IMG/VR virus record: IMGVR_UViG_3300033146_001611
Location: 1-35,794 of that record
Strand: one strand, 5' to 3'
Source: a virus
Length of the DNA: 35,794 nt
Shown: positions 6,813 to 29,863 of the stretch, one piece after another
How the letters are laid out: every line of letters starts with the position of its first letter
Position numbering within the stretch: the first letter of the stretch is position 1
Program-made: the position numbers and the translations under genes
The notes under the pieces: model-generated
What the model saw: the letters and a program-made list of their open reading frames with translations, nothing else
Database searches by the model: none
Told to the model about the DNA's origin: nothing

Positions 6813-6960
6813 TGTGCACCTCCTTTATTTTATAGGCATCAAAGCCTTGCGTATTGTGACATTTAGGACACATGTTGTTAGTTATCTTTTCATCTTTCCA
6901 GATTTGAGTTGAGAATTCACATCCACAACTACATTCTAAAATGTATATTTTGTTTCTCAT
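6799..6960 (-). CDS. 53-residue zinc-ribbon protein
   Basis: The ATG at 6960 directly follows a 15-bp palindrome, 26-27 bp from a TATA box, so the mRNA is probably leaderless. CSCGC (residues 10-14) and CPKCH (33-37) give a four-cysteine zinc ribbon. First gene of the recombination operon. Mini zinc ribbons of this kind may be DNA-binding or protein adaptors; the exact job is unknown. Confidence 0.7.
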   Translation of the reverse strand: MRNKIYILECSCGCEFSTQIWKDEKITNNMCPKCHNTQGFDAYKIKEVHNDYF

Positions 6961-6996
6961 ATATACTTAGTATATTGCTAGTCTTTATAACTGTTT
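6961..6996 (-). promoter_or_regulatory. Early promoter with 15-bp palindromic operator
   Basis: Read on the - strand: AGAAAC-like BRE, TTATAAAG TATA box (6990-6983), then ATATACTAAGTATAT (6975-6961), which abuts the ATG at 6960. The palindrome covers the expected start of transcription. The identical 15-mer precedes the gene at 24149 with the same spacing to its TATA box. Confidence 0.7.
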
Positions 6997-7001
6997 CTAT
7001 T

Positions 7002-7691
7002 TTAAGAGTATATATTCACATCTATACCTATGGAATTTCTGTTTAATTTCTCTGAAATATCTATAACTGTACCATTACCTACAAAAGGGTCTAAAATAAA
7101 ATCTTGTTCATTACTGAATGAATTTATTAACATATACACTAATTCAGAAGGTAACTGATTTATACCATTATTTTTTTTAGCTTTACTTACATTTTTACAT
7201 AAGTTATAAGTAAATACGTCATAATGTGTTACTCCTAAATGCCCTTCTTTAATTCGTTGTTTTATACGTTTATCTGTAGGATTTTTATAATCTTGTTTTA
7301 AGGGATTGAACGTGTAATTTTTATTTTTTGAAAATATTAATATAGTTCTATAACTTCTAGTATATTTAGATTTAGAATGACCTATGTTGGTAGGGTAGTT
7401 CCATATTAATTGTTGAATAAAATGATAGCCCTTTTTTATTAAATTTGCAAATAAAACATTATTATTTTCAGGATAATTAATAATACATAAAACACCTTGA
7501 GGAGTTAATGAATTAAAACACAATTCAGCCCATTCAACACACCATTCATCATAATTCTTTTTTTTATCATTAACTTTTGAACCGTATTTCCAACCTATGT
7601 TATAAGGGGGGTCAGTTATTATTAAATTTATATTATTAATTTGTTTTAGTTCTTCAACACAATCTCCCTGTATAAATTGTTTAATTACCAT
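7002..7691 (-). CDS. Beta-class DNA methyltransferase (N6-adenine or N4-cytosine)
   Basis: 229 residues. The catalytic motif IV DPPY is at residues 27-30, close to the N-terminus, and the SAM-binding motif I, DPFVGNGT, is near residue 200, the beta-class order. The target-recognition region lies between. It probably protects viral DNA from host restriction; no restriction partner is seen. The start at ATG 7691 overlaps the upstream zinc-ribbon gene by 11 bases. A second, different methyltransferase is encoded at 22456. Confidence 0.85.
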   Translation of the reverse strand: MVIKQFIQGDCVEELKQINNINLIITDPPYNIGWKYGSKVNDKKKNYDEWCVEWAELCFNSLTPQGVLCIINYPENNNVLFANLIKKGYHFIQQLIWNYPTNIGHSKSKYTRSYRTILIFSKNKNYTFNPLKQDYKNPTDKRIKQRIKEGHLGVTHYDVFTYNLCKNVSKAKKNNGINQLPSELVYMLINSFSNEQDFILDPFVGNGTVIDISEKLNRNSIGIDVNIYS

Positions 7692-8172: not shown

Positions 8173-8341
8173 TTTTTTTAAAAATTCTTTTAATTAAACT
8201 AGGTTTTTTCTTCAACAATGTAGTTCCAAAAAATCCTTCTTTTCTTTGAACAGTGAATCCGCCTTCACCATCATCAACAATAACGAATTGTTTTTCATCA
8301 TACGTTTTTAATTTATCTTTATCGAACTTGTACTTTTTCAT
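8162..8341 (-). CDS. Unknown 59-residue basic protein
   Basis: Start ATG 8341 chosen because it overlaps the nuclease stop as ATGA; a GTG nine bases upstream is less likely. Lysine-rich (KKYKFDKDKLKTYDEK; KKKPSLIKRIFKKNDN), with a central strand-turn FVIVDDGEGGFTVQ. Basic charge suggests nucleic-acid contact. No family recognised. Confidence 0.55.
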   Translation of the reverse strand: MKKYKFDKDKLKTYDEKQFVIVDDGEGGFTVQRKEGFFGTTLLKKKPSLIKRIFKKNDN

Positions 8342-8808
8342 TCTAGCCACTCTTCATCTTTTTGTAATTTCCATTGTTTATAATATGATTTGAAAATCTC
8401 TTTAACTATTGCTTTACTTTCAATACGACCACTTGTAAAGAAGATAGGGATGCCATATTTAACATGAATTGTAAAAGCAGTACTAATTGTCACATGTCCT
8501 GGAATTTGACTTCTGAACGCATTAGGATAAGTTTTATGTAATACTTTACCCAAAGAACAATCAACAACTATTGCAAAATATTTTAGAGACTTTGCACGTT
8601 CTAACTCTTTTTTAAATCTAGCATTACCTTTTCCTAAAGTTCCGACCAAATCATTAGGATTTTTACGTTCAATACAACACTCATTATCGAAAGCATGACC
8701 ATCTGCTTCAAAAGAATAATCTCCTACATCTAGTTTACGCCTAATTATATCTCTAGTCCAATAAAGGTTCTGCTCGCGTGTGTCTACTACAATTTTTATA
8801 TCGGTCAT
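8338..8808 (-). CDS. ERCC4-type structure-specific nuclease
   Basis: 156 residues. VDTREQ (8-13), GDY (29-31), ERK (47-49) and Asp53 make up the VDxRE..GDY..ERKxxxD metal site of XPF/Mus81/Hef-type nucleases; GTLGKGNARFKKELERA continues the domain. These enzymes cut branched DNA such as flaps or junctions. A lone nuclease domain without helicase or HhH tail is common in viruses. It probably resolves recombination or replication intermediates made with the annealing protein. Confidence 0.88.
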   Translation of the reverse strand: MTDIKIVVDTREQNLYWTRDIIRRKLDVGDYSFEADGHAFDNECCIERKNPNDLVGTLGKGNARFKKELERAKSLKYFAIVVDCSLGKVLHKTYPNAFRSQIPGHVTISTAFTIHVKYGIPIFFTSGRIESKAIVKEIFKSYYKQWKLQKDEEWLE

Positions 8809-9152: not shown

Positions 9153-9161
9153 ATTTAATAA

Positions 9162-9211
9162 CGCCTCACAGTTATATACAAAGTATATTGTTCATATATA
9201 TAAATGTTTCG
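9162..9211 (-). promoter_or_regulatory. Early promoter, palindromic operator and RBS
   Basis: On the - strand: CGAAACA (9211-9205, BRE-like), TTTATATATATG (9204-9193, TATA box), ATATACTTTGTATAT (9188-9174, palindromic arms ATATAC/GTATAT), then TGTGAGGCG (9170-9162). Layout and sequence match the early promoters at 6961 and 24112. Confidence 0.7.
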
Positions 9212-9232
9212 TTTATGTTATTAATTATTTAG

Positions 9233-9456: not shown

Positions 9457-10251
9457 TTATAAATGTTGTGTTTTAGGTCTTTGTTCACGAATAGTCCAAT
9501 AGTCAAAACCATTCTTTTCCATATATGTATAAGGAATGTAACAATAACCGTGGTCACCCCATTGTCGTCCCCAACTATTTCTTACAATATAATGACCTTT
9601 TAAATCATTATAACCTACAATTAACATCGCATGAGCATAAGCATTTGTGTTTTTATCCTTGATAGTTCCATCTTTGTTTCCATAAAATGAATTGTTCAAT
9701 CGGATTCCAAAAATAACTGGTGCTCCACGATTTAATGAATCTCTAACATAAGAATAATTTAAAAGATAATAACTAGTTCTATGTAAATACAGTTTTGAAG
9801 TGATACCTAATTGAATTAAACTAGGAGAGGGTTTTTTCATAAATTGTTTTTTAGACAACCCAAAAGGAAAATTCTTATCATTTACAAAACCATATTTATA
9901 TAATGATTTTAAACTATTTCTTAACCACACACCTTTGTTAGAGTCTTCATATTTATGCATTACTTTCGCAAAATACCAATTATAAATAGGACTTACGAAA
10001 GGAGTAGTGTTTTTATAATATTTGTGTAATTTACTTTCAATTAATCCCGCCACGGCAAAACCTGTGCAAGCTTGAGAGTTACCTTGATCCCGACACATCT
10101 TAAATTTAGATCTTAAATCAACAACAGTTGCAGGTGCACCCACTGTAAAATAATCATCGTATTGATAATCAGACATGTGAATGTCTTGTCTAATTATATT
10201 TGTTTTTTTGGATTTCTTCCAGTCTTTAATAATTGAAAATATATTTCTCAT
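9457..10251 (-). CDS. Papain-like (C1-type) cysteine peptidase
   Basis: 264 residues. Gln56 and Cys62 in DQGNSQACTGFA, His207 in AYAHAMLIVGY and Asn225 in VRNSWG reproduce the papain Gln-Cys-His-Asn set in order. There is no signal peptide; a propeptide-like region of about 40 residues precedes the domain. As the last gene of the tail transcript it is probably a virion enzyme or a lysis enzyme acting on the host's protein or peptide envelope (S-layer or peptide cross-links). Peptidase assignment is firm, target is inferred. Confidence 0.85.
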   Translation of the reverse strand: MRNIFSIIKDWKKSKKTNIIRQDIHMSDYQYDDYFTVGAPATVVDLRSKFKMCRDQGNSQACTGFAVAGLIESKLHKYYKNTTPFVSPIYNWYFAKVMHKYEDSNKGVWLRNSLKSLYKYGFVNDKNFPFGLSKKQFMKKPSPSLIQLGITSKLYLHRTSYYLLNYSYVRDSLNRGAPVIFGIRLNNSFYGNKDGTIKDKNTNAYAHAMLIVGYNDLKGHYIVRNSWGRQWGDHGYCYIPYTYMEKNGFDYWTIREQRPKTQHL

Positions 10252-18787: not shown

Positions 18788-18806
18788 GTAGTATATAAAC
18801 ACTATT
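18788..18806 (-). promoter_or_regulatory. Late promoter of the tail module
   Basis: On the - strand AATAGTGTTTATATACTAC, a near-copy of the AATTGTGTTTATATACTAC element found four times on the + strand. The start of transcription is expected about 25 bp downstream, near 18768, giving a leader of about 47 bases to ATG 18721. Confidence 0.7.
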
Positions 18807-21597: not shown

Positions 21598-21826
21598 TTT
21601 TTACACACCTTTTAAATACACATATTCCACATGCTCTTCCACTATTATCTATAATTTCTTGTTGTCCAACTGAGAATTGTAAATCAATAGTATTAAGTCT
21701 TGTTAGAAATAGTTCTTCTGAATCTGAATTTGAATTCCAGCATATCGGAAGTATTCTTGCAGGTGTAGGAATTTTATGTTTAATGAATAATTCTTCTACT
21801 GCTATTTCCAATTGATTTTTGTTCAT
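21581..21826 (-). CDS. 81-residue protein with Cys-rich C-terminus
   Basis: ATG 21826 with GTGAGG seven bases upstream; an in-frame GTG at 21838 is part of that ribosome-binding site and is rejected. The C-terminal CGICVFKRCVKNGC has four cysteines in 14 residues, with Cys29 elsewhere, and could hold zinc or an iron-sulphur cluster. First gene of the replication operon. A helicase loader or primase-associated zinc module is conceivable but unproven. Confidence 0.6.
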   Translation of the reverse strand: MNKNQLEIAVEELFIKHKIPTPARILPICWNSNSDSEELFLTRLNTIDLQFSVGQQEIIDNSGRACGICVFKRCVKNGCRK

Positions 21827-21832
21827 TTTCGA

Positions 21833-21870
21833 CCTCACAACATTTTTTAATGTATGGTCATTTATAAAGG
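21833..21870 (-). promoter_or_regulatory. Promoter and RBS of the replication operon
   Basis: On the - strand CCTTTATAAATG (21870-21859) is a TATA box; transcription should start near 21840, just before TTGTGAGG (21840-21833) and ATG 21826. No palindromic operator is seen here. Confidence 0.55.
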
Positions 21871-22168
21871 TTGCGATTAGTAAACTTTATAATACATCTT
21901 ACCCATCTTAACGGAAATGTAAAAGTAAATTGCTAAGTAGTGTTTATCCAACGGAGACCTACTGCCCAGTAACAATTAATTTTCAAGAGTTGAAAAATAT
22001 TGGAGCTCTGTACTGCTTGAATTCATAGAGTTAGGGAGGATAGGGAGGAAAGTGATATATAGTAAACCTATGGTGTAAAATATATAGAGAGTAAGGGTAA
22101 AAAACATGTTTTGCTTAACTATCCTACCGGAAGGTATTATTTTATAATAAAAAAAAAGAATAGATAAA
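21871..22168. other. Noncoding divergent region with hairpins and a tandem repeat; origin candidate
   Basis: The 383-base gap between divergent operons has no gene. It contains TTTTCAA-GAG-TTGAAAA (21980-21996), ACTG/CAGT palindrome (21961-21970), two tandem copies of TAGGGAGGA (22032-22049), AGGATAG/CTATCCT (22037-22043/22119-22125), and TACC-GGAA-GGTA (22125-22136) with a GNRA loop on the + strand, next to the AT-rich 22137-22168. Next to the helicase operon, this could be a replication origin or encode a structured RNA. Confidence 0.45.
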
Positions 22169-22204
22169 TTTATAAATAAACGAAATATATAAAGTATTGT
22201 GAGG
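22169..22204 (+). promoter_or_regulatory. Promoter and RBS before the 22210 gene
   Basis: TTTATAAATA at 22169-22178 and CGAAATATATAAA (22181-22193) are both TATA candidates; ATTGTGAGG (22196-22204) is the ribosome-binding site, five bases before ATG 22210. The first TATA places the start of transcription near 22199. Confidence 0.5.
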
Positions 22205-24028: not shown

Positions 24029-24094
24029 TGTAGTCGACACCTACGCATTTCTTTAAAAAACAAAACCTCTTTTTAAGTTAATGAGTCGGCTACA
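24029..24094 (+). terminator. Strong stem-loop between small terminase and early promoter
   Basis: TGTAGTCGAC (24029-24038) pairs with GTCGGCTACA (24085-24094), one G-U; an inner stem pairs CTTTAAAAA (24051-24059) with TTTTTAAG (24070-24077). It lies between the small terminase gene and the promoter at 24112. It may end the upstream transcript or be a stable RNA; the U-tract inside is part of the inner arm. Confidence 0.4.
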
Positions 24095-24110
24095 TCTTTA
24101 TTATTAAAAA

Positions 24111-24148
24111 CGAAAGGTTTATATACTGGAGCAATATACTAAGTATAT
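24111..24148 (+). promoter_or_regulatory. Early promoter with 15-bp palindromic operator
   Basis: CGAAAGG (24111-24117, BRE-like), TTTATATA (24118-24125), then ATATACTAAGTATAT (24134-24148) abutting ATG 24149, 27 bp from the TATA centre, so the mRNA is probably leaderless. The palindrome is identical to the one at 6961-6975. Confidence 0.75.
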
Positions 24149-24457
24149 ATGGTATCAAAACAAACTTTAATTGAAATAGGAGAATTACTTCCCGAAGTTA
24201 AGGAAGATATAGTTGAGCAATACAAAGATGGAATTAAAACATATGAAATTGTTTTAAGTTTATACAATTCTGAATTAAATTTTAATAATGCAGATATTAC
24301 TTCTGACCAACGAATTTGGACTGAGTCGGAATTAACTAAGATTGTTAATAAAGTTATTGATGAAATTCCTGAACCATCTAATCAAGAGATACAAAATCAA
24401 ATTGAAGATGATCGAATGGATTTCGAAGAGCAGATGCGAATTGAAAGTGACTTCTAA
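24149..24457 (+). CDS. Unknown 102-residue acidic protein
   Basis: Leaderless start at ATG 24149. Acidic helical sequence (SKQTLIEIGELLPEVKEDIV; NQEIQNQIEDDRMDFEEQMR). No family recognised. First gene of an operon otherwise made of a microprotein and four membrane proteins. Confidence 0.6.
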   Translation: MVSKQTLIEIGELLPEVKEDIVEQYKDGIKTYEIVLSLYNSELNFNNADITSDQRIWTESELTKIVNKVIDEIPEPSNQEIQNQIEDDRMDFEEQMRIESDF

Positions 24458-25440: not shown

Positions 25441-25870
25441 CCATAACGAAATACGCGTCCCCTCGCGGAGTTATCTTGTATGTCTCCGTCATTGAGTGTT
25501 GGCAACTGACATGAGAAGGGAATAGTTGCACTTTATTATACTGCTACACGACACTTGGATAAAATTCGTATAAAGGTTCGTAATCCCATTCCAAGTAAAG
25601 CAACTAAACTCTTGCAAAATTGTACGAAGGTTCCAAAGTATATACATCCTTACGACTAATTTGTTTTGGTTGGTCGGGCAAGTGCTAAGGTTTCCTTTAG
25701 CGAGGTAATCTAAATTTGACTGCTATGAAAGACTAGCGCATTTATGTTGCAAAGGGGTTCAAATCTGTTTAGCAACCAAATTAAAAACAAGGACTTAAAC
25801 AAATGTTATTGACGGTGGGAAAGACCACAACTTTATGCCTAAGCGTGAGATAAAACTCCGTGGAGGCTCT
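25441..25870 (+). ncRNA. 430-nt hairpin-dense noncoding region before the large terminase
   Basis: No gene fits. Inverted repeats occur in series: CGGAG/CTCCG (25466-25470/25484-25488), GCAACT/AGTTGC (25502-25507/25524-25529), ACTTGG/CCAAGT (25553-25558/25591-25596), TTTGGTTG/CAACCAAA (25665-25672/25773-25780) enclosing GCTAAGG/CCTTTAGC (25684-25690/25694-25701), and GGTGG/CCAC (25814-25818/25825-25828). Base composition is visibly richer in GC than the flanks. It could be a large structured RNA on the packaging transcript, or a pac/cos region. GGAGG at 25862-25866 is the terminase RBS. Confidence 0.5.
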
Positions 25871-28267
25871 ATGTTCAAAATGGTTAGAAAAGTAAACATC
25901 ACATTATCCAAAAAACAAATGCAGGCAATACAAGTTCTTAGAGATGACACTACAACTGAATTGTTCTATGGCGGTGCAGCAGGCGGGGGAAAAACTTGGC
26001 TAGGTGTATTGTGGCTAACTTTAAGTGCGTTAGAATATCCTGGAACTAGATGGATGATGGGACGATCTAAACTTAAAATCCTTAAAGAAACTACGTTATT
26101 ATCATTCTTTGAAGTTGTAAAATTAGTAGGTATGCACAGAGATAAAGATTACAAATACAATTCTATGTCTGGAGTAATAACATTCACAAATGGTTCAGAA
26201 ATATATTTAAAAGATTTATTCTTATATCCAAGTGATCCTGAATTTGATTCGTTAGGTTCAACTGAATATACTGGCGCATTCATTGACGAGGCATCAGAAG
26301 TTACAACTAAAGCAAAAACTATTGTTACATCACGTTTAAGATTCAAGTTAGAAGAGTTTAATCTTATTCCTAAATTATTATTAACATCTAACCCTTCAAA
26401 GAATTTCTTATATACTCAATTCTATAAACCAAACAAAGCAGGAACGATTCTTAATTATCGAAAGTTCATCTCTGCATTGGTTCAAGACAATCCTTACATT
26501 TCACCACATTATATTGAAAACTTAAAGAAGTTAGATCCAGTATCTAAGGAGCGTTTGTTCTATGGAAACTTTGAATATGATGACGACCCTGCTAAATTGA
26601 TGGAATACGATAACATTGTAGATATATTCACTAATCAGTTTGCAGAAGATGAATCTGACACTAAATACTTAAGTTGTGACGTTGCAAGGTTCGGTAAAGA
26701 TAAAGCAGTTATAATTATTTGGAAAGGATTATTTATTGAAAAGATATATGATTATGGTAAATGTTCAATCAAAGAATTACATGATAACATCATCAGATTA
26801 TGTAAACAACACAAAGTTCCATTCTCAAACGTAGTTGTAGATGACGACGGAGTAGGTTGTGTAATTCCTGATACAGAAGTATGGACTGTTAAAGGTTGGA
26901 AAAAAGCTGAAGATGTTCAAGAAGGTGAACAAATTTACAGTAAAGATGAAAATGATAATTTAATTATTGAAACTGTTAAATCTAATCGTAAAATTGAAAA
27001 TATGAAAATATTGAAAAATGAAGATTACGAATACAGTTGGACGCATCTAATGCCATACAAAACAAGAAAAGAACATTCAATGAAAGTTGGAACTTGGCAA
27101 GACACATTAAAATTAAAACAAATCTATTTAGATAATAAATTTAATTGGACTGGTAAGGCTGATGAAGATATAACTTTTCCTGCAACTGAATACGCTATGC
27201 CTAATGGTGGAATTAAGCAATTAGATAATGAATTGAATTTAACTAAAAGTGCATTTGCTAAGTTTTTAGGTTGGTATGTATCTGAAGGTTGTATTGATGA
27301 TCGCTATGTATTGATTGCTCAAAATGTAGATAGTCCTCACAATAAAACGATTAGAAGTATTTTGGATGAATGTGGATTTAATTATTATATTAAACCCAAA
27401 GGTCGAGAACAGTTTTATTCAATAGGTCATAAAGGATTAGTTAAATGGTTAAAAGAACATTGTTACACTGGTAAAACGTATAATTGTTATAATAAAAAAA
27501 CACCTGACTTAATTAAGAACTCAACTAAACGAATTATTGATTTATACTTAGATGAATTTATTAATGGTGATGGCTATTATCACAAAGGAATGAGAACTAT
27601 GATTACAAGTAGTCCTGTTTTGGCGGACGACTTACATGAATTAGTATTAAAATCTGGTTCGTATGCAAATAAACGAATTAAACACAAAAAAGGTTCAACT
27701 TCAGTAATTGAAGGCAGAACTTTAACAAGAACTACGGATTGCTTCGTTGTTTACGAATGGAGTAATAAACACATATTACACAATGTAGGTGAAACTGAAG
27801 AACGAATTGGAACAGTTCATAATATTAAAATCACTGGTAAAACTCATTTATTTATGAATCGGTTTAAAAATAATCGAGTGTTTTGGACTCATAACGGTGG
27901 AATAGTAGATTGGCTACCTAACGTCACTGGTTTTGTTAATAACGGAAAAGTGATTGATGAAGATAACCAAACTTTAAACTATGCAAATCTTAAAACTCAA
28001 TGTTATTTCAAATTAGCTGAATATGTTATGGCGAATAAAATTGGCTGTTACAAAGAAGTTCCATCTGAAGTTCAAGAAAATATAATTGCAGAACTTGAAC
28101 AAGTTAAACGTGCGGACATAGATAATGACCAGAAAGTTAAACTTGTAAAAAAAGATGTAATGAAAGATAATCTTGAAGGGCGTTCACCTGATTATGCAGA
28201 TTCTATGATGATGAGAATGGTATTTGAATTGAAACGTGATGTATTAATTGATTTCTTAGACCTTTAA
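25871..28267 (+). CDS. terL: Large terminase (TerL) interrupted by an intein
   Basis: 798 residues including a 346-residue intein; the ATG at 25871 is chosen for its GGAGG four bases upstream. The processed protein would be 452 residues, normal for TerL. Walker A GGAAGGGKT is at residues 34-42 and Walker B FIDEASE follows; the nuclease part begins with CDVARFGKD and VVVDDDGVG. The intein lies between GVG (327-329) and GGIVDWL (676 on), inside the conserved nuclease motif, so splicing is required for activity. It powers DNA packaging at the portal. Confidence 0.92.
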   Translation: MFKMVRKVNITLSKKQMQAIQVLRDDTTTELFYGGAAGGGKTWLGVLWLTLSALEYPGTRWMMGRSKLKILKETTLLSFFEVVKLVGMHRDKDYKYNSMSGVITFTNGSEIYLKDLFLYPSDPEFDSLGSTEYTGAFIDEASEVTTKAKTIVTSRLRFKLEEFNLIPKLLLTSNPSKNFLYTQFYKPNKAGTILNYRKFISALVQDNPYISPHYIENLKKLDPVSKERLFYGNFEYDDDPAKLMEYDNIVDIFTNQFAEDESDTKYLSCDVARFGKDKAVIIIWKGLFIEKIYDYGKCSIKELHDNIIRLCKQHKVPFSNVVVDDDGVGCVIPDTEVWTVKGWKKAEDVQEGEQIYSKDENDNLIIETVKSNRKIENMKILKNEDYEYSWTHLMPYKTRKEHSMKVGTWQDTLKLKQIYLDNKFNWTGKADEDITFPATEYAMPNGGIKQLDNELNLTKSAFAKFLGWYVSEGCIDDRYVLIAQNVDSPHNKTIRSILDECGFNYYIKPKGREQFYSIGHKGLVKWLKEHCYTGKTYNCYNKKTPDLIKNSTKRIIDLYLDEFINGDGYYHKGMRTMITSSPVLADDLHELVLKSGSYANKRIKHKKGSTSVIEGRTLTRTTDCFVVYEWSNKHILHNVGETEERIGTVHNIKITGKTHLFMNRFKNNRVFWTHNGGIVDWLPNVTGFVNNGKVIDEDNQTLNYANLKTQCYFKLAEYVMANKIGCYKEVPSEVQENIIAELEQVKRADIDNDQKVKLVKKDVMKDNLEGRSPDYADSMMMRMVFELKRDVLIDFLDL
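26858..27895 (+). other. Intein with LAGLIDADG homing endonuclease in TerL
   Basis: Residues 330-675 of the precursor. Block A CVIPDTEVWTVKGWKKAEDV begins with Cys1; a DOD endonuclease is present, with FLGWYVSEGC and IDLYLDEFINGDGYYHKG; the C-terminal block is THLFMNRFKNNRVFWTHN, ending in His-Asn. The residue after Asn is Gly, not the usual Cys, Ser or Thr. Exact extein joining to DGVG-GGIVDWL makes the boundary firm. Confidence 0.9.
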
Positions 28268-28308: not shown

Positions 28309-28560
28309 GTGTATATTGTGAGGGTAAAAGATTATTTTAGAAAGGTATTAAAACAATTCTTATTTCATAGTGAAGACTATGTTGTACCTGTAAAAGTAAT
28401 TGAATATGTTGATGTGGATAGATTATTATTTAGTATACCTGGTCTAGATGATGCTGAAACGAAAGAATTTACAAAACTTATTAAAAATTCTATAAAAGAA
28501 AATAAAATTGTTATAACCTCACGAGATATTAGACAAGTAATTGTACTGAAGAAAAAGTGA
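28309..28560 (+). CDS. Unknown 83-residue protein
   Basis: Start uncertain: GTG 28309, near the expected transcription start, or GTG 28318. Basic N-terminus (RVKDYFRKVLKQFLFHSE), then a mixed domain (VIEYVDVDRLLFSIPGLDD; ETKEFTKLIKNSIKENKI). No family recognised. First of a four-gene group before the portal. Confidence 0.5.
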   Translation: MYIVRVKDYFRKVLKQFLFHSEDYVVPVKVIEYVDVDRLLFSIPGLDDAETKEFTKLIKNSIKENKIVITSRDIRQVIVLKKK

Positions 28561-28567
28561 GGATATA

Positions 28568-28783
28568 ATGTATACAGAATTAATAATGAACTTTTTAGAT
28601 GAACATGCAGGTTTACATTTCTCAGTTAAGAAACTACAAGAAGAATTACATCTTGCAAATAGGCGAACCGTACATGCTAGTATGACTCGTATTATGAAAT
28701 ATGATTGTTATGAACATCTCATGAAAACATCAAATGGGACTCGTGAAATAATAACTTCGTATTACGGAGTGAGGGTGAATTAA
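28568..28783 (+). CDS. Winged-helix DNA-binding protein
   Basis: 71 residues, ATG 28568 (RBS GTGAGG). LIMNFLDEHAGLHFSVKKLQ, then EELHLANRRTVHASMTRIMK is a helix-turn-helix with the typical ARRT..SL recognition helix, followed by wing strands (REIITSYYGV). It is a candidate for the late-promoter activator or a repressor of the early promoters. Confidence 0.7.
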   Translation: MYTELIMNFLDEHAGLHFSVKKLQEELHLANRRTVHASMTRIMKYDCYEHLMKTSNGTREIITSYYGVRVN

Positions 28784-29206
28784 ATGGAAGAAGAACCAAT
28801 AAAAACAAAACAAGCTAAACTATCTTATAAAGAAAAGTTATTAGCGAAAATTAAGGAATTTGCTGTAATGGATAGCGTTCCTGTAAGAGTTAAAAGACGT
28901 ATGCAAGAATTAAAAAACGAATCAACTGCGAATAATCAAAGATTGGGTTCAGGGATTAGTGCTGAATGGGTAACAGTTCCACCTAATAAAGTAATACAAA
29001 ACTTAGAATCAAGTATACGTGATGGAATTGGAACTATTTCTTATAGAGTAATGAAACTCGACAAAGATGGAAAAAAGATTTTAAATCCTACTAAAATGAC
29101 AAATCAATTAGGAAATGAAATTGATTTTGATGGAGCTTATGAAATTGATCATGAAGTAATTGAAACATTTCGATTTGGGGAAAAAATAAAGGTAATTGTA
29201 AGATGA
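28784..29206 (+). CDS. Unknown 140-residue protein
   Basis: ATG 28784 with GTGAGGGTG upstream. Basic N-terminal 50 residues (KLSYKEKLLAKIKEFAVMD; VRVKRRMQELKNES), then a beta-rich part (GISAEWVTVPPNKVIQNLES; GTISYRVMKLDKDGKK). No family recognised. Overlaps the next gene by four bases. Confidence 0.55.
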   Translation: MEEEPIKTKQAKLSYKEKLLAKIKEFAVMDSVPVRVKRRMQELKNESTANNQRLGSGISAEWVTVPPNKVIQNLESSIRDGIGTISYRVMKLDKDGKKILNPTKMTNQLGNEIDFDGAYEIDHEVIETFRFGEKIKVIVR

Positions 29207-29694
29207 TAACAGAAACAAGAAGATTTGTTCAAAGAGGGAATATTGTTTTAGTAAAAAGAGATATGCCTGCTGAACAATTAACTGATAAAGATATTTTAAC
29301 ACATATTCAACAACATAATGCAGAACTTAAAAGGATTAAAGAAGAAAAAGATAAATCTTTAAAGTACGCTGTATCAATGGATGAAAAGACTGATTTTGTT
29401 AATAATAGTTTAAAAGATTTTAAGAAATTTGAAAAATGGGCAACTAAACTTCAAGTAAGTAAACTTAATGTTATTATTGATGAAAATATGGCTGCAGCAA
29501 TTGAAGAAGTGGACAAGTTATATGTTGTTAATAATTCAAAAGATAAAGCGTGGAATGCTGCTAAGAAATATGAAAAACTTCAAGATATTATCGGGCGATT
29601 ACCTGAAGTAGCTGAAAAGATTTCTAAAGAAATTATGACTAAATATATTTTTACAGATTGCATGTTTAAGAACCCTTGGAACTTAACTGAGTAA
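29203..29694 (+). CDS. Unknown 163-residue helical protein
   Basis: Starts within the end of the previous gene (ATGA-type overlap). After a short beta segment (RFVQRGNIVLVKRDM) it is mainly helical and charged (THIQQHNAELKRIKEEKDKS; EVAEKISKEIMTKYIF). No family recognised; the stop overlaps a late promoter. Confidence 0.55.
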   Translation: MITETRRFVQRGNIVLVKRDMPAEQLTDKDILTHIQQHNAELKRIKEEKDKSLKYAVSMDEKTDFVNNSLKDFKKFEKWATKLQVSKLNVIIDENMAAAIEEVDKLYVVNNSKDKAWNAAKKYEKLQDIIGRLPEVAEKISKEIMTKYIFTDCMFKNPWNLTE

Positions 29695-29711
29695 TTGTGT
29701 TTATATACTAC
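29693..29711 (+). promoter_or_regulatory. Late promoter before a small RNA
   Basis: AATTGTGTTTATATACTAC, identical to the element before the protease (32149) and head fibre (34186). No coding start lies within the next 174 bases before the portal, which has its own copy at 29845. Confidence 0.7.
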
Positions 29712-29729
29712 TTTGTTTTATTTTTTTAC

Positions 29730-29843
29730 ATAGGTAAAGGTAAGGGGTACTTTAATGTTGTTTTTATACTGCATTAGAAACAAGTTTAATTCGCCTCACA
29801 ATGAAATATTCATGTTTTTATTCTACCTCTTACCGCCTTTTTT
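29730..29843 (+). ncRNA. Candidate ~114-nt late small RNA
   Basis: From the TATA box at 29700-29707, transcription should start near 29730. GGTAAGGGGTA (29739-29749) pairs with TACCTCTTACC (29824-29834), 11 bp with one G-U, enclosing a loop region with ATGAA-ATA-TTCAT (29802-29814). The GCC + T7 tract at 29835-29843 ends it like an archaeal terminator. The loop includes CGCCTCACAAT (29792-29802), complementary to GTGAGG-type ribosome-binding sites of early genes. Next to it, the portal gene has its own promoter. No reading frame of use is seen. Confidence 0.6.
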
Positions 29844-29844
29844 T

Positions 29845-29863
29845 AATTGTGTTTATATATAAG
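29845..29863 (+). promoter_or_regulatory. Late promoter of the portal gene
   Basis: AATTGTGTTTATATATAAG, one of the late elements. Transcription should start near 29880, so the leader before ATG 29886 is only a few bases, though GGTG (29877-29880) precedes it. Confidence 0.65.

Follow-up and report, generated by a model that had tools for sequence, protein, structure and literature searches.

What is made from a structural-gene promoter that stands a short way upstream of another copy of itself, in front of a portal gene? This arrangement occurs in the window analyzed here, the whole 35,794-nucleotide AT-rich record of a head-tail virus (IMGVR_UViG_3300033146_001611). A sequence-only reading of this DNA had placed a small late RNA between the two promoter copies and proposed that its loop masks early ribosome-binding sites. 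Temporal control in tailed viruses is usually ascribed to sigma factors, antiterminators, repressors or nucleases. Here we report that the element is very probably a functional non-coding RNA gene. On sequence evidence, we put the probability that it acts as a late trans-acting antisense RNA masking early start regions at roughly one half.

Virus and promoter classes

The window encodes a head-tail gene set comprising a D5-type primase, terminase, a portal fused to a MuF domain, protease, capsid and tail genes; the terminase large subunit belongs to Terminase_6N and is encoded separately from the portal-MuF protein. The host is probably an archaeon, judging from the form of the promoters and from relatives among haloarchaeal viruses: TATA-like boxes lie ~28 bp before the predicted starts, distant relatives carry TTTAAATA boxes upstream of their portals, the ERCC4 nuclease (8338–8808) matches only haloarchaeal viruses, and the top portal match among the matches listed is a haloarchaeal virus. 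Counting against this assignment, the terminase is closest to Bacteroidota phages and the primase to bacterial phages. A terminase search of genome contigs and a 20-mer search of a genome collection yielded no host genome, and the latter returned no copy of the RNA.

Several further features of the genome were recorded. A papain-family (C1) cysteine protease, unusual in a tailed virus, is encoded beside the tail genes (9457–10251, −). The terminase large subunit (25835–28267) carries an intein-like insertion at about residues 342–687, directly after the DDDGVG motif, beginning CVIPDTEVW and finishing FWTHN; the terminases of distant relatives are uninterrupted at this point (DEDGVGGGVVD), and the close relative described below keeps the insertion almost identical. 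Upstream of terL, an apparently non-coding block (25449–25536) is 93% identical to that relative, conserved above most genes, and contains the inverted repeats CGGAG..CTCCG and GTTGGCAAC; it is possibly another structured RNA or a packaging site. The divergent intergenic region between two early operons (22006–22160) holds conserved GGGAGGATAGGGAGG-like and CGGAAGG-like blocks and is a possible replication origin or RNA.

Gene content and the type of promoter served to assign the labels "early" and "late". Exact copies of the 16-mer TAATTGTGTTTATATA are found at 29692, 29844, 32148 and 34185, preceding the small RNA, the portal, the protease and gene 34260, and a copy with one mismatch lies at 18792 (−), before the tail operon 18721−. 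Apart from the copy at the small RNA, each stands before a probable virion-structure operon, so the label "late" is reasonable for this class. The exact late-promoter copy that the sequence-only reading had put at 29693 is therefore real (29692–29707), and its spacing to the portal's copy is 152 bp rather than the 174 bases given there. In the close relative, the small-RNA promoter is kept at the same offset, as AATTGTGTTTAAGTA. In the late class, TTTATATA lies ~28–30 bp before the point where conservation of the RNA begins; in the early class, TTGTGAGG is preceded at a distance of 28 bp by a TTTATAAA box, at 21840− as well as at 22197. Early-type promoters at 6958–7015, 9173–9215 (−) and 24094–24151 have a common module, in which a palindrome-like ATATACTWWGTATAT between the TATA-like box and the start is a candidate operator of a viral repressor.

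A predicted, conserved three-way junction

The RNA gene sits between gene 29203 and the portal gene (Table 1). Its 5′ end is predicted to lie about 28–30 nt downstream of the TATA-like box, and sequence conservation sets in sharply at ACATAGG in both viruses. The predicted fold is a three-way junction, consisting of a bulged 11-bp closing stem (one G–U pair included), a hairpin P2 and a hairpin P3 with an open loop; its energy in the window falls ~4 standard deviations below that of shuffled sequences (z about −4). The closing stem and terminal T7 tract, by which the element had originally been delimited, are both present in the sequence. Within the loop, CGCCTCACAAT is located at 29792–29802. 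Folding predictions, which had been proposed as a check on the accessibility of CCUCACAA, leave this segment mostly unpaired, with mean unpaired probabilities of 0.87 in the window and 0.76 in the relative. No Rfam family matches the RNA at gathering threshold.

Table 1 Features of the small RNA locus and candidate targets in the window
Feature	Position	Strand	Remark
Structural-gene-class promoter	29692..29707	+	AATTGTG, then TATA-like box TTTATATA; precedes small RNA
Small structured RNA, ~117 nt	29728..29844	+	Same fold in both viruses; 5′ end predicted, 3′ end in T-run
Outer helix AGGU/GCCU	29732-29735 / 29835-29838	+	Separated from P1 by AAA bulge
Closing stem P1, 5′ strand GGUAAGGGGUA	29739..29749	+	Unchanged in relative
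Hairpin P2	29753..29776	+	UAAUGU/GCAUUA in window; UUUUAAUGU/ACAUUAAGG in relative
Hairpin P3, bearing recognition loop	29777..29818	+	Predicted for each virus separately; stem differs, loop same
20-nt loop GUUUAAUUCGCCUCACAAUG	29784..29803	+	Invariant between the two viruses
Closing stem P1, 3′ strand UACCUCUUACC	29824..29834	+	GCCCUUUACC in relative, pairing kept
Run of 7 T, candidate terminator	29838..29844	+	After closing stem; run interrupted in relative (TTTAATTTTAATT)
Portal gene's separate promoter copy	29844..29859	+	Portal ATG 29886; copy also present in relative
Leader of first small ORF (ATG 9152), leftward early operon	9155..9172	−	Candidate target; TGTGAGGCG..ATTAAA, −20.9 kcal/mol
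Start of first gene of replication (primase) operon, 5′ end and SD	21823..21844	−	Candidate target; −21.4 kcal/mol, relative −19.5; TTGTGAGG kept
SD of gene 22210, rightward early-type operon	22195..22204	+	Candidate target; 10 bp, −14.1 kcal/mol in both viruses
Probable GTG start 28318, first gene after terL	28314..28323	+	Candidate target; 10 bp, −14.3 kcal/mol in both viruses
GTGAGGGTGAATTAA(ATG) before gene 28784	28769..28784	+	Candidate target; −19.6 kcal/mol in window, −16.8 in relative

Portal and capsid searches disclosed one close relative, the 22.9-kb viral contig IMGVR_UViG_3300005264_000095, with the same gene order around the element and with a terminase 95% identical outside the intein and a portal ~73% identical. 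It carries the element at the same place, with identical promoter spacing and the same fold. The 5′ strand ACATAGGTAAAGGTAAGGGGT and the loop GTTTAATTCGCCTCACAATG are unchanged: all 20 loop bases are invariant, while the P2 and P3 stems, the other loops and the 3′ strand of the closing stem vary. Folded separately, both RNAs adopt the same predicted three-way junction. In a hand alignment, none of the 24 consensus pairs is broken and 6 are altered one-sidedly through G–U; the two-sequence consensus fold reaches z −6.1 against column shuffles, in an alignment made with the structure in mind. An unsupervised MAFFT alignment recovered the closing stem with no broken pair and gave a different inner helix, which makes the inner hairpins less certain than the closing stem. 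The relative's RNA alone scored only slightly better than shuffles (z −1.3), and true double-sided covariation is absent because the RNA is known in two viruses only.

Further copies of the RNA were sought in several ways. An exact 16-mer and two gapped patterns, run against viral contigs, returned the one relative plus chance matches. A covariance model applied to 89 sources (0.95 Mb) found the two known copies, the next best hit having an E value of 0.19, and a search of 15 whole records gave nothing convincing. A broad terminase search produced 80 loci, almost all of them distant; their portals, at best 44% identical, are not accompanied by the element. In the distant relatives L040 and L042, the portal leaders contain, just upstream of the start, ATCACCTC / ATCACCTTACCCCTC, which resembles the 3′ end of 16S rRNA (anti-SD).

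Predicted pairing with start regions

The loop-complementary sites listed in the sequence-only reading are all present: ATTGTGAGG at 22196–22204 and 28315–28323, TTGTGAGG at 21840–21833 (−) and TGTGAGGCG at 9170–9162 (−). Their description as four ribosome-binding sites needs revision at one of them. The 28315 site is complementary to the loop as claimed and belongs to a start codon, not to an SD, since it overlaps the probable GTG start 28318, which has its own likely SD (AAGGTG) upstream. The start of gene 28784, absent from the first list, is a further predicted target; its predicted partner is the loop's left half (GUUUAAUUCGCC), and ~12 bp of this duplex persist in the relative despite a changed SD. 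Taken together, the candidate targets cover the whole invariant loop.

Conservation of the pairing was assessed in the close relative. All three testable TTGTGAGG sites are kept there, as had been suggested as a check; the 9162–9170 site was compared in the window only, as the region is off the relative's contig. Four orthologous starts (21826(−), 28784, 28318 and 22210) have duplex energies of about −13 kcal/mol or lower in the window and the relative alike, and the next best, 28568, reaches −10.8 in the window and −12.2 kcal/mol in the relative. The late starts 29886, 32192 and 33092 pair weakly, between −4 and −7 kcal/mol. The four-site total, defined as the sum of the four best sites with the weaker virus's value taken each time, was equaled by none of 1000 shuffled loops, by 1 of 1000 shuffles in which CCUC was kept, and by 2 of 1000 genomic 20-mers of like G+C. 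Because the loop and the SD share CCUC/GAGG, some complementarity to start regions is expected, which the CCUC-keeping shuffles partly control, and the p-values are somewhat optimistic because the complementarity was first spotted by eye. By exact matching, 7 of 47 starts have at least 8 complementary bases against 0.5–0.9 expected, some of them being AT-rich matches common everywhere. If transcription begins 28–30 nt past the TATA-like box, the early mRNA 5′ ends at 21840 and 22197 would lie within TTGTGAGG, and the duplexes there would be shorter.

The motif and the RNA also tend to occur together. TTGT before GAGG near an ATG was counted in 2 of 36 cases in the window and 3 of 24 in the relative (one on the antisense strand of a gene), as against 2 of 1160 in ~80 distant relatives without a detected RNA, all with a homologous terminase and many with a homologous portal (best 44%) and capsid. 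The enrichment in the window alone over the distant relatives has a Fisher p of 0.005; as a single lineage is involved, this co-occurrence counts as one event. The pattern named beforehand as fatal to the idea, relatives that keep the motif and have lost the matching loop, was not observed: the relative keeps both, and the distant viruses are essentially without the motif.

Alternative explanations

The main rival to an antisense RNA is that ATTGTG(AGG) represents the DNA site of a viral regulator that activates late promoters from just upstream of the TATA-like box and represses early ones at or after the start, the copy in the RNA loop being one more such site. In archaea, regulators placed upstream of the TATA box commonly activate, and those placed downstream of it commonly repress. 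ATTGTG is common to the late promoter (AATTGTG-TTTAWATA) and to the early start motif ATTGTGAGG, and the start of the motif falls 28 bp downstream of the TTTATAAA box at 21840 and 22197, where transcription is expected to start. However, by a rough estimate a six-base sharing has a chance probability of a few percent, and the distance between motif and TATA-like box varies (28, 28, about 31–33 and 40). The 28784 site, moreover, lies inside an operon with no TATA-like box near, and its pairing involves the opposite half of the loop. A regulator site would explain neither the invariance of all 20 loop bases nor their open position within a conserved fold, and we consider this reading unlikely.

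It is also rather unlikely that the element is simply a structured terminator or leader separating the portal from the operon upstream, either halting read-through or leading a longer portal message from tandem promoters. A stem with 7 T behind it, immediately ahead of the portal promoter, has the expected form, and the interrupted T-run of the relative could allow read-through into the portal message there. Nevertheless, the portal has its own promoter copy, and conservation starts at the predicted RNA start, not where the upstream gene ends; furthermore, an invariant loop of 20 nt and a conserved P2 would be superfluous in a simple terminator.

The statement that the upstream promoter drives no gene has to be qualified, because a 35-codon frame (ATG 29755–TAA 29862, MLFLYCIRNKFNSPHNEIFMFLFYLLPPFFNCVYI) does follow it; frame and codon tests nonetheless disfavor this frame, and a small protein gene appears improbable. 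The relative opens a 33-codon frame (MFFATTLRTMFNSPHNGFTGFCPLPPLILIVFK) from the matching ATG, FNSPHN and LPP are common to both products, and the invariant loop is read in the same frame in both viruses. In the hand alignment, however, the homologous TACT[G/A]CATTA, the best-conserved inner stretch, is read in different frames, and substitutions are distributed 10/14/16 by codon position, without coding bias. Among 14 identical residues, 12 also keep their codon, compared with about two thirds in neighboring genes, which indicates constraint on the nucleotides. An SD-like AAGGGG is sequestered by the closing stem, and the open frame continues past the T-run and into the promoter of the portal.

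We also consider it improbable that the RNA is produced together with the portal as a virion or packaging RNA, forming part of the packaging motor or head and analogous, though unrelated, to the phi29 prohead RNA. The length of ~117 nt, the three-way junction with its bulged closing stem, the late-type promoter and the adjacent portal gene would all suit such a function. Yet there is no Rfam match (RF00044 is absent among matches up to E 10), the terminase large subunit is ordinary with no phi29-type motor, and relatives with homologous terminase and portal lack the RNA. By inspection, a 4-nt match between the P2 and P3 loops (UUGU/ACAA) is found in the window only and not in the relative. Pairing with early starts would also stay unexplained. 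Mimicry or titration of ribosomal RNA, offered in the sequence-only reading as its own alternative, is weak and was set aside, as only the CCUC core is common to the anti-SD whereas the invariant part spans 20 nt; the flanks of the invariant segment also pair with start regions.

Discussion

Complementarity of the loop to early starts suggests an RNA switch that would end early translation late in infection. We infer transcription, the RNA's start and stop points, the timing of the promoter classes, binding and repression from the sequences. On the firing of late promoters, the small RNA gene would be transcribed from its own structural-gene promoter, and the compact three-way junction would display the invariant 20-nt loop. 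By pairing over 10–16 bp with early-type messages at their 5′ leaders and start regions, this loop would block ribosome access and bring early translation to an end, whereas late messages, having no matching start regions, would be spared. Pairing is predicted for the replication operon, for the operon of gene 22210, for two small genes ahead of the portal (28318 and 28784) and for the early operon that runs leftward. Of the original proposal of a late RNA masking early starts, what stands is a structured RNA whose promoter is of the structural-gene class and whose complementary segment is conserved and mostly unpaired; one of the sites is not a ribosome-binding site.

Parallels exist in Archaea and among phages. 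In Methanosarcina mazei, the archaeal trans-acting sRNA162 has been experimentally shown to mask a ribosome-binding site (PMC3510493). The RNA described here is likewise small, with a single-stranded region predicted to pair with ribosome-binding sites in trans; sRNA162, however, is host-encoded and acts in metabolic regulation, whereas the present RNA is virus-encoded, lies behind a late-type promoter, has several predicted viral targets and is known from sequence alone. Halovirus phiH makes its antisense RNA as a counter-transcript, by transcription across the target itself; in contrast, the RNA reported here is encoded away from its candidate targets, and its short loop would pair with several starts. 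As far as the citing article's account goes, the phiH RNA (Stolt and Zillig 1993, cited in PMC6210493) resembles the present one in being an antisense RNA of an archaeal head-tail virus that controls the virus's own transcripts, a role that is predicted here. Among phages, P22 sar, lambda OOP and lambda aQ are cis-encoded antisense RNAs with one target each, of which P22 sar blocks translation initiation (reviewed in PMC12197685). The proposed RNA shares with these three the action of a small viral RNA on viral messages in a developmental switch, and differs in that it would act in trans, on about five early targets. Phi29-type pRNA (RF00044) is similar in length and three-way junction, and a late association with the portal is suspected here from gene position; the present RNA, however, shows no covariance-model match and no conserved loop–loop complementarity, and its virus has an ordinary terminase.

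That one late viral RNA brings about a coordinated early-to-late switch, masking ~5 early operons or genes at once in a probably archaeal tailed virus, is a tentative but serious possibility. We know of no multi-target trans-acting viral RNA of such kind described in Archaea. The prediction is sharp, as it specifies individual bases of the loop and of five start regions, and can be tested with plasmid reporters. If it is true, a late RNA silencing several early messages via one loop would constitute an RNA-only timer; and if the host is an archaeon, viral RNA regulation in that domain would be extended beyond the phiH counter-transcript.
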